NCBI GenBank assembly: GCA_002803225.1
Contig: NXFV01000602.1
Location: forward strand, 1-31,599
DNA: 31,599 nucleotides
DNA from: Gamarada debralockiae
Lineage: Eukaryota > Ascomycota > Leotiomycetes > Helotiales > Hyphodiscaceae
Direction: 5' to 3'
Shown: one piece after another, positions 21,261-31,599 of the stretch
Position numbering within the stretch: the first letter of the stretch is position 1
Layout: each line of letters starts with the position of its first letter
The notes under the pieces: generated by a model
The model's input: only the letters and a program-made list of their open reading frames with translations
Database searches by the model: none
What the model was told of the DNA's origin: nothing
Position numbers and translations under genes: made by a program

Positions 21261-24200
21261 TCACGTGTCCCTAACACTAAGCCAGTAGTACGCACAAACG
21301 TCAAAAAATTCGCCCCTGAAACTCTTCCCTCTCAAACGAAATGTGTCTTCTCTGAATGGAACCCACACCGACTCGTTCGTAATGTCCTCCCTCGGATCTT
21401 TGTGTAACAACCAATACATAATGCTCTTGCTTGTCTGTTTTTGCCCTTCACAAGCCCTTCCAACGACAACACACTTCAATCTCTGAGTGTCTGTTATGTC
21501 TTCCCTATCGAGCTTCAACCACCCTCTTTTGTCAGCCCCTTCAGCAGATATAACGCATTTTGCATCTTGCGGTTCGATCGTATAATGACTGAATTCTCTC
21601 ACTGGCGCTCGCAGTTCGGCAGCTTTGCTAGGCTCCCATTTGACGGCGTCACTCCATTCTACCTTTCTGAATAGAATATCCATATAACTGATCTCTCCTT
21701 CGTATGCCATCCAGGACCACGACGGCACTTTCCTGTCTGGCGAGTACCTTATCCGCTCCATTCGCTTCGCCGTAGACCGTTGCCACAGTATGTTCCGATG
21801 TAGGTAATACTGGGAAATGCCGTAGCTCACTTTAGTCCTAAAAGCACTCGCAAATCTGCTCTCTAGTCCAGAGATCGCAACGGACCTGTCGGTAAGGTTT
21901 GTAAAGGCCAGCTTCGAATAGATCTTAAAGAAGGACTGCAAAAGAGAGAATCTGGTTTGATCGGATTGAGACACAATAGAATTCGGAAACGTAGAGTTGC
22001 CTAGCAAATTTGCCTTACTAGAAAAGTCAGATATATCTAATCGCTAGATCATCAAGGTAGTTGAAATCATCTCTAATAGAATGAAAATTAAAAAAAAATG
22101 CAAATATTCTGGGAGATATTCTAGCTCCCAAAGGGATTATAATTGAATTCGAGGGACTTACTTGTACATTTTGATAAGGCTTTCACAATGAACCCCTCTA
22201 TCGCACTCCCAATAGGTCTGCTTTTCAGTGAAATGAATTGTTCGACGTGATAAGGCTCTTTCTTGTAACACCCATCCCCGTTGGCTTAGTACTCCTTCCT
22301 CTACATCACGATGAAAATCATCGATATTTTCGCAAATATAGAATGGGATACCTGAGACACCTGGGACCGTCACATACTGTCTTGATGGCCGTGGACTGAG
22401 AAATCCCTTGGTGGAATCTGTAGCAGAGCTAGCAGCAATTGTACAATACGCCGAGCTGAAGACCGTTTCCATCTTCTTGGACTCCCTGTCCCAGTCATCG
22501 GGGTCATCTTGAATTATGCACAGTGAGTCAATCCAGAGGAATCGTATGCTGAGTTTTCGAGTGACTGTGACAGCGTCTTGAAATGTCTTGGTTCGGCCTT
22601 TAAAGTCGATACTTTCACATAGAGCGGCAATATTGTGACTGTAAGTGCAGAATTTCTGGCTCTCTTCAAGCTTGCCCCAGCAATGAGACAAAGCAATATA
22701 TTTTCCTCGTTCACTTTCCTTTGAACAATGAAGACGCAGCGAATCCGAGTACATAGGATCCCCTACATCAAGGACTCTTGTTGGCAGTGGACTATCAAAT
22801 CCAGTGTAACAATTATGACGTTTGTCACAAACTTGAAGCCATTCGCGAAGCAACTTGAAATCGATTAGACTTCCTGCTTCGAGTAACACTGGAGATCCAA
22901 CTTGGATATTAATAGGAGCTATTTTAGATCCTATTCACAAATAATAAGTCATTCTATATTGTGACACTTTCTTCTTCTCTTGCTTATGGACGGAGCTAAG
23001 TGAATATTTACATACCTAGACCCATACATATTTTGAGAACAGGCGGTTCATAACCACGCATTTTCCACATCGAACCATTTCTGAAGAGTATAATATCTTT
23101 TTGATCACTTGTGCTAGAATGATCCAAGTCTAAACATTGCAAGAGCATTCTGCAAAGTTCACAAGTCTCTGCGGTTTTCCTCAGCTGAGAGGATCTGATG
23201 TTATGGCGGAAATCCTGAGACGATATCTTACTACAGTCCCTACACAATTGCGAAGAGGCTGATTGTTGAGATAGCATATTCGGCCGGCTTTTTAGTAAAA
23301 ATTCATCGGCAAAAGCATTATCTATGTCATATTGCCATGTATCGTTAATCTATATTATATTTAGTATAACACCAATAAATTAAGAAAGCCACGTTCTGCC
23401 TAGGCTTAGGTCTACTTACCATCTACATCAGTAAGCAACATAAGGTCAGCAATCCACACACTTGCTCAGCCTAGCCAAGTCTATTTACCTCCTATACCAG
23501 CAAGCAAGACAAGGTTAATAATCCATACGCTTGCGTGGCCTAGCCAGTCTACTTACATCCTACACCAGTGATCAAGACATGGTTAGCAATCCACACCCTT
23601 ATTCGGCCTACCCAGGTCTACTTACACGCTACACCAGCAAGTAAGACAAAGTCAGCAATCTATACGCTTGCTCGGCCTACCCAGGTCTACTTACACGCTA
23701 TACCAGTAAATAAGACAAGGTTAATAATCTATATACTTACTCGGTTTAGCCAGGTCTACTTACACGCTATACCAGCAAGCAAGACAAGGTTAGCAATCTA
23801 CACGCTTGCTCGGCCTACCCAGGTCTACTTACAGGCTATACCAGCGACCAAGACAAGTCAGTAGTCTACACGCTTACTCGGTCTAGCCAGGTCTACTTAC
23901 AAACTATACCAGCGACCAAGACAGGGTCAATAATCTACACTCTTATTCGGCCTAGCCAAGTCTACTTACATCCTATACCAATAAGCAAGATAAGGTCAAT
24001 AATCCACTCGCTTATTTGGCCTAGCCAGGTCTACTCACAGGCTATCCCAGCGAGCAAGAGAATGTTAATAATCTACACTCTTGCTCGGCCTAGCTAGGTC
24101 TACTTACCTCCTACACCAGTGACCAAGACAAGGTCAGCAATCCACACGCTTCCTTTGCAGAGCCAGTTCTGCTTACTTCCTATAGCAATAAATGGAATAA

Positions 24201-24466
24201 AATAAGTAATATACATATTTACTTTGCTCTAGCATTCCTACTCACAGCCTATAAGATCAAAATTATATTAGTTACAAAATATAATCAGAGTCACTTATAT
24301 AACTTACAGTAAAAGAATCGGACTTGTCTAGAGGCTTGTTGGTTAGAAGCTCGCTGCTTGGAGGCTCGTTGGCGGGAGGCTCGATGGGTGGAGATTCAGC
24401 AACTAGAGGATCAGCAACTAGACGTCTACAGTGAGATAGTCGCTCATTCACACCTAATTTCTCCAT
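21261..24466 (-). CDS. HET-domain protein with a 13-microexon array, 685 aa
   Basis: Heterokaryon-incompatibility (HET) domain protein of the type that triggers cell death on non-self recognition. Model on the minus strand: exon 1 at 24466-24308 (53 codons, proline-rich PPIEPPANEPP); thirteen 3-nt microexons; exon 23349-23016; exon 22930-22162; exon 22017-21261. All junctions are GT-AG and the frame is open throughout, giving 685 residues. Residues 67-90 (INDTWQYDIDNAF...) are open coding upstream of the M at 23277, behind a TACTAAAT branch and TATAG acceptor; this ties the array to the gene. A C-x2-C (LCRDC, about 101-105) precedes the HET domain (about 255-405): YIALSHCWG, LWIDSLCIIQ, RGWVLQERALSRR. 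The exon 1 start is the first ATG, but a TTTTCCCTAG just before it could be an acceptor of a further upstream exon. Skipping the whole array as one 958-nt intron also keeps the frame. Confidence 0.82.
23350..24307 (-). repeat. Tandem array of 14 introns separated by 3-nt microexons
   Basis: Read on the minus strand, the approximately 69-bp repeat is an intron plus one codon. Introns 2-13 (24245 to 23423) are homologous, 66 nt each except two of 65 nt. Intron 1 (24307-24249, 59 nt) is unrelated, and intron 14 (23419-23350, 70 nt) shares only its first 13 nt. Every unit starts GTAAGT, GTGAGT, GTAAGC or GTAAAT and ends TAG. Most have a branch such as GCTAAC, GCTGAC, ATTAAC or ATTGAC about 20 nt before the acceptor. 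Microexons sit at 24246-48 (GCT), 24177-79 (GAA), 24108-10 (GAG), 24039-41 (CCT), 23970-72 (GAT), 23901-03 (TTT), 23833-35 (CCT), 23764-66, 23695-97 and 23626-28 (CGT each), 23557-59 (GAT), 23489-91 (GAG) and 23420-22 (ATG). All are in phase 0 with both flanking exons. Confidence 0.85.
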
Positions 24467-27568: not shown

Positions 27569-28739
27569 ATATATATAAGATTAACAGAAGAGAAAATCTA
27601 GGTCTTTGGACAGACTAAATAGGAATTATATGAACACTACCCTTTACCTTCCTACTAATACCTAAAAAAAGAAAAGACAGATAAAACACGCATATTGATA
27701 CAAGAATAAGGGCACTAAACAAAACACGCGTCCGATGGACGCAATATTGATACCTTAATCTTAAGGCAGAAACACGTGCAAGCAAAACGGAGAAACTAAA
27801 AAGCCGAACCCACTGTACTCTCTATCTTCGAAACATCTTTCTTATTTTAGCTAACGCTAAAATTCGATGGCAAATGGTATTTAGCACAGCTCAATTATAC
27901 TGTACTAGTAAAATCATTGAGCCGGATGTGCCACCGATTTCCGCTTAGAACACTTCCGAAAATTTATAGTCAGCCATATCCCCAATATCTCATCCACCCT
28001 AATTTAAGGGCAGAATTCGATAACGTGCATTGGTAGACTAAATGAAGTTCAAGATGTCAAGTAACACCCTCGACTTATCGGGCTCTCGCTTATTTCGCCA
28101 ATGATATGATGTATGCAGTTGTCCGAATATATAAGTTGGTTAGATTTCGTGAGGCGGCAAAGACTGTTGGACTTTCGAATGCTCCCCACCTGGCAGCCTC
28201 ACAATCGAAAAAATGGCCACAACACTATCTGAAATCGAGCATCTGCTGCTCCGATGCTAGTGTGATAAAGGTAAGATTACCTCCTCCCATAGAACAAATC
28301 TGTCCCTCCCAACTCAAACCACCCACGACAGGGAACCTCGTCGTACCATCTTCCAAGTCATAACATCTCTGGCCTTTTCTGCATTCTTTTGATTTGCCGA
28401 ATACGCGGCATGCCATATCTAGCGCCCGACTGGGCCTCCCGAACGCGCGACCAAACCTCATTGCACTACCCCCAGATCCTCATCTAATTATCATCTTCCT
28501 CATATCCTACCGCACACGGGCCATACCCGACCAACCACTTACAAATTATCTGCTGCTACAGCTGCGCCAAAGACAGCCAACTGACCAACTCGAAACTGAG
28601 GTCAAAAAGTCAACTAACTTCTTGAACCGACCGAAATTGCCCCTTAACTACTCCCTCCAACAGCGCCGCCCTCACCACGAACTACTCTCTTATCTTGCTA
28701 CGATCCTCAAACCCATCAAACCCAGCATGCCTTATCGCG
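27569..28739. other. Non-coding stretch and leader of the NLR gene
   Basis: Contains a perfect 8-bp hairpin (ATTTTAGC at 27844-27851, four-base loop, GCTAAAAT at 27856-27863) of unknown role. A minus-strand frame at 28225-28461 has coding-like composition (CRVFGKSKECRKGQRCYDL) but no recognisable domain and no clear start. It may be chance. The last 300 bp are rich in C and A and probably form the leader of the gene starting at 28740. Confidence 0.4.
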
Positions 28740-31599
28740 ATGACTGATCCTTTACCACCTAAAAATCGTTCGGATTTTGAGATAGCTGTTATTTGCGCCT
28801 TGCGTTTGGAGGCTGACGCTGTGGAGGCTTTGTTCGACAAATTCTGGGATGACGATGGGGACAGATACGGAAAGGCGCCAGGGGATACAAATACATATAC
28901 GACAGGCGTAATTGGTCGTCACAATGTCGTCCTGGCATTTATGCCCGGTATGGGCAAAGGCAATGCGGCGGCCGTAGCAGCCAGCTTCCGATCCAGCTTT
29001 GGGAGGATCAGGCTCGCTCTGGTCGTTGGGATTTGTGGCGGAGTGCCTTGTGGGACAGATGAGGAGGAGGAGATCCTACTCGGTGACGTCATTGTCAGCG
29101 ACGGACTTATACAGTACGACTTTGGGAGGCAGTTGCCAGACAGATTTGTCAGGAAGGACACTCTCAACGATAATCTAAGACAGAACTCCGAAATCCGAGC
29201 ATTCTTAACCAAGTTGAAAGGGCGAAGGGGTCGGATGCGCCTGAAAGATAGGACTTTTCATTACCTCACCGCCCTACGCGCGGAGCTAGGCGCCGAGAAC
29301 ACACGATATCCGGGCGCAATTGAGGATAAGCTCTTCGAGTCCAACTACCGTCACAAGCATCATGACTCGCCGACGTGCACAATCTGCGCCAAATGTGAGA
29401 GGAAAGAGGATGAGGTCTGCGAGGCTGCTCTTGATTCATTGTGTTCGGAATTGAAGTGTAGCGAGAGCAAGCTAGTACGTCGCATCCGGCTGCTAAATGC
29501 AGTTGAGGCTAGGGGTGATACAGAGGAACCAAAACCGCTGATACACTATGGCTTGATTGCATCTGGGGACGCAGTTATGAAGTCAGGTGAGCGCCGTGAT
29601 GAGATCGCCTTACGGGAGAATGTTATTGCCTTTGAAATGGAAGGAGCTGGAGTGTGGGACAATTTCCCTTGTGTTATAATCAAAGGGGTTTGCGACTACG
29701 CCGATAGCCACAAGAACAAGAAGTGGCAGAGCTATGCTGCAGCAACGGCGGCAGCATGTATGAAAGCATTCTTGGAAGCATGGGTTTCCCCGGATAAACT
29801 GTTGCTAGATGCGTCGGTTCACAGTAAGTAATAACTTTAGTTGGGAATTCCTTCCCCTTATCAACTCACTATACTGCAGCTCATATGCTGTATAATTTCG
29901 GAGACGGGGCTCGGTCTGAATAATCAACATAATACAGATTTTCAACGATTTAGTGCTTGTTAAGTATTGAGACACGCAGCTTCATTTCTTCTTTTCTTTG
30001 TTATTAAATATGTTCTTAGCTCTCTTATACTTAAGGAAGCACGGTTTTTTAACTTAATTTAATACTGGGATCTAAATCAAAAATTGTAGATAAAGCAGAA
30101 CTACGGAAGCCCGTACTTGATCTCATAGTGTCTAGATATATGTGATGGTTATAGAATCTTATGCTAACCTTACTCTAGAAACACCAAAGGGACATTGGCT
30201 CGTTCCATTCGGGCGCAACAAGCAGTTTGTTGGTCGTGACTCTGAAGTCAAGCAGGTTACTACTAAGCTTGACCCCGGTAATGAAGATGACTGCCAGCGG
30301 GTTGCAATTACAGGCTTGGGAGGAATGGGCAAGACTCAAATTGCCCTTGAGGTTGCCTTTCGGATTCAGAAAAACTATCCTGACTGCTCGGTGTTTTGGG
30401 TTCCTGCCATGGAGACGACTACCTTTGAGCGTGCGTTTCGGGAAATTGGCCAGAAACTCCAGATAGCCGGCATAGATGAGGACAAAGCAGATGTCAAATT
30501 ACTAGTAAAGATGGCCCTGAGCCAAGAGAGTGTGGGCCGATGGCTGATGGTTATTGACAACGCTGACGATGCGGGAATGCTTTACACTAAAGCCGATAAG
30601 AGTAGTGAAACCAACGGCTCTTCTCGTCTTCTCGACTACCTTCCTTTCAACCGAAAAGGTTCAATCCTCTTCACGACCCGGGACGGCAAGGCTGCAGTCA
30701 AGCAAGCCGAACTAGACGTAGTAACGTTAAAAGAAATGAGCGAGAGTGACTCTTTGCAGCTCCTGAAAACGAGTCTCCAAGACCCAAGTCTGTTAGGAGA
30801 CATAATCTCTGCAAAGAAGCTTCTTGATATACTTGCTCACCTTCCACTCGCGATGAAACAAGCCGCAGCTTTCATTAACGAGAATACTACATCAATTTCT
30901 GAATACTTAGAAATCTGCGAATCTAATGAAGAGCAATTTGTTGAGCTTCTCAGCAGAGATTTCGAGGACAAGGGGCGGTATAAGAGTACGACAGCGGTCA
31001 AAAATCCGATTGCTCTAACTTGGTTGATCTCTTTCCGTCAGATCTTGACTCATGATCTACTGGCTGCAGAGTATCTGTTCTTTATGTCTTGCGTCGCCCA
31101 GCAGGATATTCCAGACTCTTGGTTACCAGCAGCTCTAAAATTGAAGAAAACGGATGCGCTTGGGACGTTGAAGGCATATGCATTTATTACTCCACGAGCA
31201 GAGCAGCACTCATATGATATTCATCGACTCGTCCAGATTACAGTGCGCAATTGGTTAAAAGAGAAGAATGAATTGGATTTGTGGAGAGGCAAAACGCTCC
31301 AACAGGTCGCAAAAGTCTTTCCATTCCCGAAGCATGAGAACAAGGACATATGGACGTTATATCTTCCCCATACCAAATATGTCCTTAGCTCTGAGAATTA
31401 CTCGGGCAAGCTTGGAGAATCTTATTGGTGTCTGGTTTTCAACGTTGGAGAGTGCTTCCGAATCACTGGAAAATATGACCAAGCTGAAACATCGTATCAA
31501 CGGGCGCTCGAATTGAGAGAAAAGATGCTCGGCGTTGATCACCCGTCGACGCTAGATAGCATGAACAACCTCGCATTAGTGCTCAGCAATCAGGGTAAG
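28740..31599 (+). CDS. Fungal NOD-like receptor: nucleoside phosphorylase, NB-ARC, TPR (incomplete)
   Basis: Exon 1 (28740-29823) and exon 2 (30179 to beyond the window) join in frame across a 355-nt intron (GTAAGT; GCTAACC branch; CTCTAG), giving 835 residues so far. Residues about 10-345 form a PNP/UDP-phosphorylase domain (FEIAVICALRLEADAV, VVGICGGVP, IAFEMEGAGVWD, IKGVCDYAD), with the cysteine-rich insert usual for such fungal proteins (YRHKHHDSPTCTICAKC). The NB-ARC ATPase follows: FVGRDSEV, Walker A GLGGMGKT (407-414), Walker B WLMVIDNADD, SILFTTRD and HLPLA. The last residues start tetratricopeptide repeats (YDQAETSYQRALELREKMLG, then LDSMNNLALVLSNQG). This is a STAND/NLR receptor with the phosphorylase as effector domain and TPRs as sensor. 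All motifs look intact. Confidence 0.92.

Follow-up and report, generated by a model that had tools for sequence, protein, structure and literature searches.

Can part of a protein be assembled from a run of exons that each hold a single codon? This question is raised by a contig of the ascomycete Gamarada debralockiae (GenBank assembly GCA_002803225.1, contig NXFV01000602.1; the whole 31,599-nucleotide stretch is called the window here), in which a gene with a HET domain is preceded on the minus strand by what reads as 14 introns with a triplet between each pair. The first donor of this array stands at 24307 and the last acceptor closes at 23350; the order of the triplets and the lengths of the introns are listed in Table 1. 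We consider it likely that the array consists of 14 introns separated by one-codon exons, and that splicing brings the 13 codons together in the mRNA, where they would encode a short linker before a conserved block upstream of HET.

The predicted introns carry the sequence features of U2-type introns. All 14 have a GTRARY donor and a TAG acceptor, 13 of 14 contain a match to the branch site consensus YTRAY, and their lengths run from 59 to 70 nt. The stretch between introns is 3 nt in 13 of 13 cases. Exon 1 (159 nt from the ATG at 24466) ends in phase 0, and the exon that begins with ATTAAC at 23349 starts in phase 0. An earlier reading of this DNA, made from the sequence alone and called the sequence-only reading below, had described 14 introns, thirteen 3-nt exons, a branch site in most introns, and codon boundaries on both flanks, all of which were borne out. 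Its description of each 69-bp repeat unit as one intron plus three bases holds for most units: a 69-bp tandem periodicity spans 23408 to 24184, and introns 3 to 13 (11 of the 14) are close copies. The two ends of the array depart from this description, in that the body of intron 1 is unrelated to the repeat (z = 0.1 to intron 2) and that of intron 14 is mostly different, with partial likeness (z = 4.3 to intron 13).

The gene itself is assigned by profile to the HET family, which is associated with self/non-self recognition (PF06985, 102.6 bits against a cut-off of 22.5), and a role in recognition is suggested by membership of that family. Its closest proteins are from Tricladium varicosporioides (65% identity), Halenospora varia, and Cudoniella acicularis, all of them Helotiales (Leotiomycetes), and the genome contains at least 150 HET domains. 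Pfam searches of the gene's three exon frames returned HET only, without the NACHT and ankyrin domains that define the nank family of Tuber. In structure, the predicted gene falls within the definition of a micro-exon gene (MEG), which asks for at least 7 exons, at least half of them micro-exons (shorter than 70 nt and divisible by three), and a run of at least 4 (PMC7653826): it has 13 micro-exons among about 17 exons, in a run of 13.

To examine the spacing beyond the window, we searched the whole genome (54.3 Mb, 1112 contigs, with the window contig labeled C258) for the pattern GTAAGT N42-72 TAG NNN GTAAGT and ran the same pattern with the exon length k set from 0 to 12. The spectrum yielded 62 places, of which 33 have k = 3 and 29 are shared by the remaining twelve lengths. 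The 33 are distributed over the window array (6), C16 (5), C17 (2), C835 (14), C347 (2), C332 (1), and 3 singles. Tandem runs were found at k = 3 only, and none lies among the 29 places of other length. A control with the pattern written backward gave, over five pattern searches, 11 places against 33 found, 150 against 62, 32 against 41, 29 against 8, and 3 against 5; the k spectrum was preferred as a control because the backward pattern has a different base make-up.

Samples of sequence were scanned as well, with a rule-based finder that called a donor, a branch site, a YAG acceptor, and introns of 45 to 100 nt. Among the 30 best HET matches, taken with 1.5-kb flanks, k = 3 runs (at least two exons) are present at 3 of 30 loci, namely, the window, C571, and C16; the same 30 loci contain a single k = 6 run, with no run at any of the eleven further lengths tried. 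Neither these matches nor the genome spectrum was selected by the k = 3 pattern. In a set of 205,533 bases that was partly fetched by the k = 3 pattern itself, runs of at least two exons occur at six places with k = 3 and at one with k = 6 (inside the window array), with no runs at k = 0 to 2, 4, 5, or 7 to 15. Ten locally shuffled replicates of this set, tested at k = 3, contained no runs. Single exons were not telling in the same bases (seven places at k = 3, 0 to 4 at other k, and 2.6 in the shuffles), and isolated k = 3 matches, one each on C374, C887, and C1020, were taken as chance, since the loci read there show no chain.

Other k = 3 matches were recorded by position, at C1035:84621-84754 (plus strand, two matches with a common donor), C571:33623-33685 (minus strand), and C1056:24652-24860 (plus strand, two matches about 87 bases apart). 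Further ones lie on C462, C891, C20, C213, C275, and C554, all but C20 noted by position alone, and another pattern search added matches on C202, C562, C802, C824, and C867.

The view that the layout belongs to a single gene proved too narrow, since the k = 3 arrangement recurs at five further places: C16/C17, C571, C347, C332, and C835. C16 and C17 contain the two ends of an array that is interrupted by contig ends, with 6 and 3 triplets read, respectively; the two ends appear to belong to one gene. The C16 repeat unit is 71 nt, and a HET paralog of 49% identity lies downstream of that array. On C17 (L063:1-260, minus strand), the first unit may be preceded by an extra one-codon exon (CAG GAA GTTAGT) that follows an intron of unrelated body; it was left uncounted.

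The C571 locus was found through HET homology, independently of the k = 3 pattern. Upstream, this HET gene has a protein kinase domain, and its chain (L070:2927-3331) comprises five one-codon exons, TAT GAG TTC CCC AAA, among six introns. Each of the six has a donor, a branch site, and a YAG acceptor; one is a GC-AG intron with the donor GCAAGA. These introns share no mutual similarity (median z = -0.1), and their splice signals and 3-nt spacing are thus not a by-product of recent duplication.

The remaining three loci are of other kinds. C835:50374-51729 (L064:3875-5230) has a first exon that resembles a signal peptide, judged by eye and not by a predictor. Sixteen one-codon exons come next, and TGT (Cys) accounts for four. 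The intron lengths at this locus range from 63 to 79 nt, yet the exons are 3 nt in 16 of 16 cases. C347 (L065:3924-4590, plus strand) and C332 (L066:4359-4889, minus strand) are paralogous precursor-like genes that have a signal-peptide-like exon of another kind and a Lys-Arg site. The first has four one-codon exons and the second has two, with splice signals that are altered further on.

Whether the codons are translated can be addressed at C571 by comparison with C536, another kinase-HET paralog that also has the kinase domain upstream and that has a single intron at the corresponding place. From that intron, the conserved Trp is the 10th codon in both genes; these ten codons are spread over six exons in C571 and lie in one exon in C536, whose junction is backed by proteins P0122 and P0123, reading TQNEYSVEPM across it. 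A profile placed 45 kinase-HET search proteins, of which 44 yielded a pre-Trp segment, and 4 of these 44 segments carry DY..PKLD..W. Set against the linkers of some kinase-HET proteins from other fungi, DYGHPKLDPTKW among them, the C571 residues Y-E-F-P-K score higher than random codons do, both in the mean of the ten best scores (p = 0.003, rank 4 of 120 permutations) and in the best score (p = 0.026, rank 7 of 120). With the five codons left out, the best score is 15, compared to 29 with them. Most likely, the one-codon exons of C571 are translated and, by homology, the window codons would be too. In C258, C16, and C571 alike, the last acceptor of the array lies 3 to 4 residues ahead of the conserved Trp, and the position of the array is therefore probably ancestral to all three. 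The reading of the triplets as one-codon exons has thus gained good support from the five further places, the unrelated introns of C571, and the linker fit, and it stands as a prediction.

Variation among repeat copies was compared by column, over 11 rows for C258 (introns 1, 2, and 14 were dropped), 15 rows for C835, and 7 rows for C16/C17. In C258, the pairwise difference is 0.62 for triplets and 0.22 for intron bodies, a 2.8-fold contrast (p = 0.003), and in C835, the corresponding values are 0.60 and 0.21 (p = 0.001). Splice columns vary less than other columns in C835 (p = 0.004) and in C16/C17 (p = 0.009). The data fit a situation in which splice signals are kept and codons are diversified, and homogenization of the introns could contribute to the contrast between triplet and body.

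Several results weigh against the one-codon-exon interpretation. In the column tests, the triplet contrast of C16/C17 is not significant (0.32 versus 0.13, p = 0.12), nor is the lower variability of the C258 splice columns (p = 0.06), and all of the p values treat columns as independent although the copies are related. The linker fit was obtained with a single scoring scheme and depends mainly on four alike proteins (P0147, P0148, P0153, and P0154). At the start of the C571 chain, the donor can be placed in more than one way, for a first intron of 54, 68, or 72 nt, and intron 2 of the window array has no YTRAY match, so the rule-based finder recovers 11 of the 13 window exons. A linker comparable to that of the window gene was not found in the homologs compared. 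The sequence-only reading had also joined exon 1 to the HET exons; a like exon occurs in none of 16 homologs, which counts against this part, whereas the conserved W..D..FA block begins ahead of the first in-frame ATG of the post-array exon (residue 25), and a translation start is therefore expected 5' to the last acceptor. Finally, homology to HET proteins changes frame at 21438-21441 (minus strand) in the window gene, about 45 codons before its end, and inside HET in the C16 copy, and either gene may thus be damaged or misassembled. C536 stays in one frame, and the sole frame change of C571 sits at a gap that fits an intron.

Under the interpretation that we favor, each intron would be removed through intron definition, and removal probably proceeds from the 5' end to the 3' end. 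Each new codon would then already be joined to the upstream exon when the next donor is used, and the crowding of a 3-nt exon would be avoided. In this way, a linker of at most 13 residues would be built intron by intron, N-terminal to the conserved block. With an intron plus one whole codon as the repeat unit, unequal crossing-over would add or remove whole residues with the frame kept, and the expected result is a linker that varies in length and, given the variability of the triplets, in sequence. Skipping any subset of codons also keeps the frame, because all junctions are phase 0 and all exons are 3 nt. For the same reason, the exons might form a combinatorial cassette, with alternative inclusion producing many linker variants per gene, an account that overlaps with the one above. 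Such splicing has precedent, in that codon-sized microexons, also called mini exons, are alternatively spliced in NACHT-ANK genes of Tuber melanosporum and serve to diversify them (Dyrka 2014, PMC4986451, citing Iotti 2012). Alternative inclusion is likewise reported for flatworm micro-exon genes. However, the five codons of C571 match a linker of C536 length, which argues for steady inclusion in that gene; we regard the cassette as possible, if on balance somewhat doubtful.

The array could instead be a noncoding minisatellite within one long intron, its splice motifs copied from a founder intron and exon 1 joined directly to the HET exon. This is what might be expected of an array in which 11 of 14 introns are close copies and splice columns are only weakly more conserved than the rest. 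We consider it unlikely, since the C571 chain retains its signals after similarity among introns is gone, k = 3 is held in arrays with different bodies, and the C571 linker fits its homologs worse when the five codons are omitted.

Another proposal is that the array acts mainly as a splicing gate, which limits or times the expression of a cell death protein, with codons that matter little. PMC4986451 refers to HET as a death effector domain, and the unspliced array, with 26, 32, and 32 stops across its three frames, would allow no read-through. The same layout, however, is shared by two gene types whose first exons resemble signal peptides, and a pure gate leaves unexplained why variability within the unit is highest at the triplets; the gate is accordingly quite improbable.

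Least credible by far are an opposite-strand coding repeat or RNA gene and an intron-borne small-RNA cluster: two overlapping plus-strand frames of 106 and 115 amino acids at 23544-24097 do cross part of the array, probably by coincidence, as the 69-bp unit is a multiple of three, but an opposite-strand repeat protein is ruled out by stops in the window array (8, 10, and 10 in three frames) and in those of C16 and C835 (5 to 9 and 16 to 21, with shorter open stretches), where no frame is kept because the C16 unit is 71 nt and the C835 units vary, and known structured RNAs are rejected by the lack of any Rfam match at gathering scores across six sources. A selected hairpin in the introns was also rejected, as the arms of an intron pair with each other no better than with swapped arms (swap test, p = 0.32) and no covariation was seen.

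Returning to the one-codon-exon interpretation, transcripts that carry the codons would represent an extreme test of minimum exon size, with acceptor and donor 3 nt apart 13 consecutive times. Each repeat gained or lost by the minisatellite would then change the protein by exactly one residue, in families where variation of length and sequence is believed to be important. Such genes would probably be overlooked by standard gene prediction and RNA alignment. More tentatively, and with a little under even confidence, we propose that the one-codon-exon architecture recurs in fungi, among rapidly evolving genes for recognition and for secreted products. The intron-plus-codon repeat would write the protein residue by residue and undergo crossing-over without cost to the frame, with introns held in register by splicing and codons free to diversify.

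The sequence-only reading knew of no fungal precedent, a statement that does not stand in view of the codon-sized microexons of the T. melanosporum nank genes. These resemble the present case as a fungal NLR-type family with multiple codon-sized exons, alternatively spliced in Tuber and predicted in the window gene. They differ in that the truffle genes are NACHT-ANK genes, whereas those described here are HET, kinase-HET, and signal-peptide-like-exon genes of a fungus whose HET protein is nearest to those of Helotiales. More than 50 such Tuber genes have reportedly been likened to schistosome micro-exon genes. A statement that functional microexons have not yet been described in filamentous fungi (PMC11121469) overlooks the Tuber report. 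Thus, the class is known in outline from truffle, and what is new here is its presence in HET genes, the tandem intron-plus-one-codon arrays, and a chain with unrelated introns. In the literature searched (one paper collection), no account of tandem intron-plus-one-codon arrays or of one-codon HET exons was found.

Outside fungi, the MEGs of schistosomes and tapeworms likewise have extended series of exons whose lengths are multiples of three. In schistosomes, the MEG proteins are secreted (PMC10526429, PMC7653826), and the exons are 6 to 81 bp in the body of PMC10526429 (3 to 81 in its abstract), mostly 15 bp, with introns of 0.1 to 5 kb; here, by contrast, all array exons are 3 nt and introns are 54 to 79 nt. 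Splicing of 1- to 3-nt exons is documented for fungi, plants, and animals. Examples are a 1-nt exon in Fusarium CYP621A, called the first in a fungal gene (PMC12940212), the 1-nt exons of plant APC11 and VPS55, the 3-bp exon of Drosophila hth, and the 3-, 18-, and 22-bp exons of human RPS24. Those genes have 1 to 3 microexons, whereas 5 to 16 consecutive one-codon exons are predicted here.

Introner-like elements and stwintrons are likewise proliferating fungal introns (PMC8469720), but they lie at many gene positions or are nested, whereas the arrays here are tandem and those of C258 and C835 are each found at their own place only. A dispersed introner, which is marked by near-identical copies in unrelated genes, was rejected because DNA searches with these two arrays matched only the query place, a search that short divergent copies could escape. 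A stwintron was rejected because the window introns are consecutive by sequence, 3 nt apart, and none is nested in a splice signal of another. Tandem duplication is known to yield introns, as in potato RdRp (PMC4974935); the difference is that a whole intron plus one codon is repeated here, up to 16 times.

Table 1. Predicted features of the window HET gene, in order of transcription
Feature	Position	Strand
Candidate exon 1 (ATG, 53 codons, phase 0 at end)	24308..24466	-
Array, 14 introns and 13 one-codon exons	23350..24307	-
Intron 1, 59 nt, body unrelated to repeat	24249..24307	-
One-codon exon 1, GCT	24246..24248	-
Intron 2, 66 nt, divergent copy, without YTRAY match	24180..24245	-
One-codon exon 2, GAA	24177..24179	-
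Intron 3, 66 nt	24111..24176	-
One-codon exon 3, GAG	24108..24110	-
Intron 4, 66 nt	24042..24107	-
One-codon exon 4, CCT	24039..24041	-
Intron 5, 66 nt	23973..24038	-
One-codon exon 5, GAT	23970..23972	-
Intron 6, 66 nt	23904..23969	-
One-codon exon 6, TTT	23901..23903	-
Intron 7, 65 nt	23836..23900	-
One-codon exon 7, CCT	23833..23835	-
Intron 8, 66 nt	23767..23832	-
One-codon exon 8, CGT	23764..23766	-
Intron 9, 66 nt	23698..23763	-
One-codon exon 9, CGT	23695..23697	-
Intron 10, 66 nt	23629..23694	-
One-codon exon 10, CGT	23626..23628	-
Intron 11, 66 nt	23560..23625	-
One-codon exon 11, GAT	23557..23559	-
Intron 12, 65 nt	23492..23556	-
One-codon exon 12, GAG	23489..23491	-
Intron 13, 66 nt	23423..23488	-
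One-codon exon 13, ATG	23420..23422	-
Intron 14, 70 nt, mostly different body	23350..23419	-
Post-array exon, starts 4 residues ahead of the conserved Trp in the pre-HET block	23016..23349	-
HET-domain exon (PF06985 at about 22700-22260)	22162..22930	-
C-terminal exon region, predicted start; homology frame change near 21440	21307..22017	-

Elsewhere in the window, a PNP_UDP_1 frame followed by a frame with NB-ARC and TPR domains occupies 28626-31599 on the plus strand, at a distance of about 4 kb from the HET gene; the two frames make up one NLR-type gene or a pair of genes.

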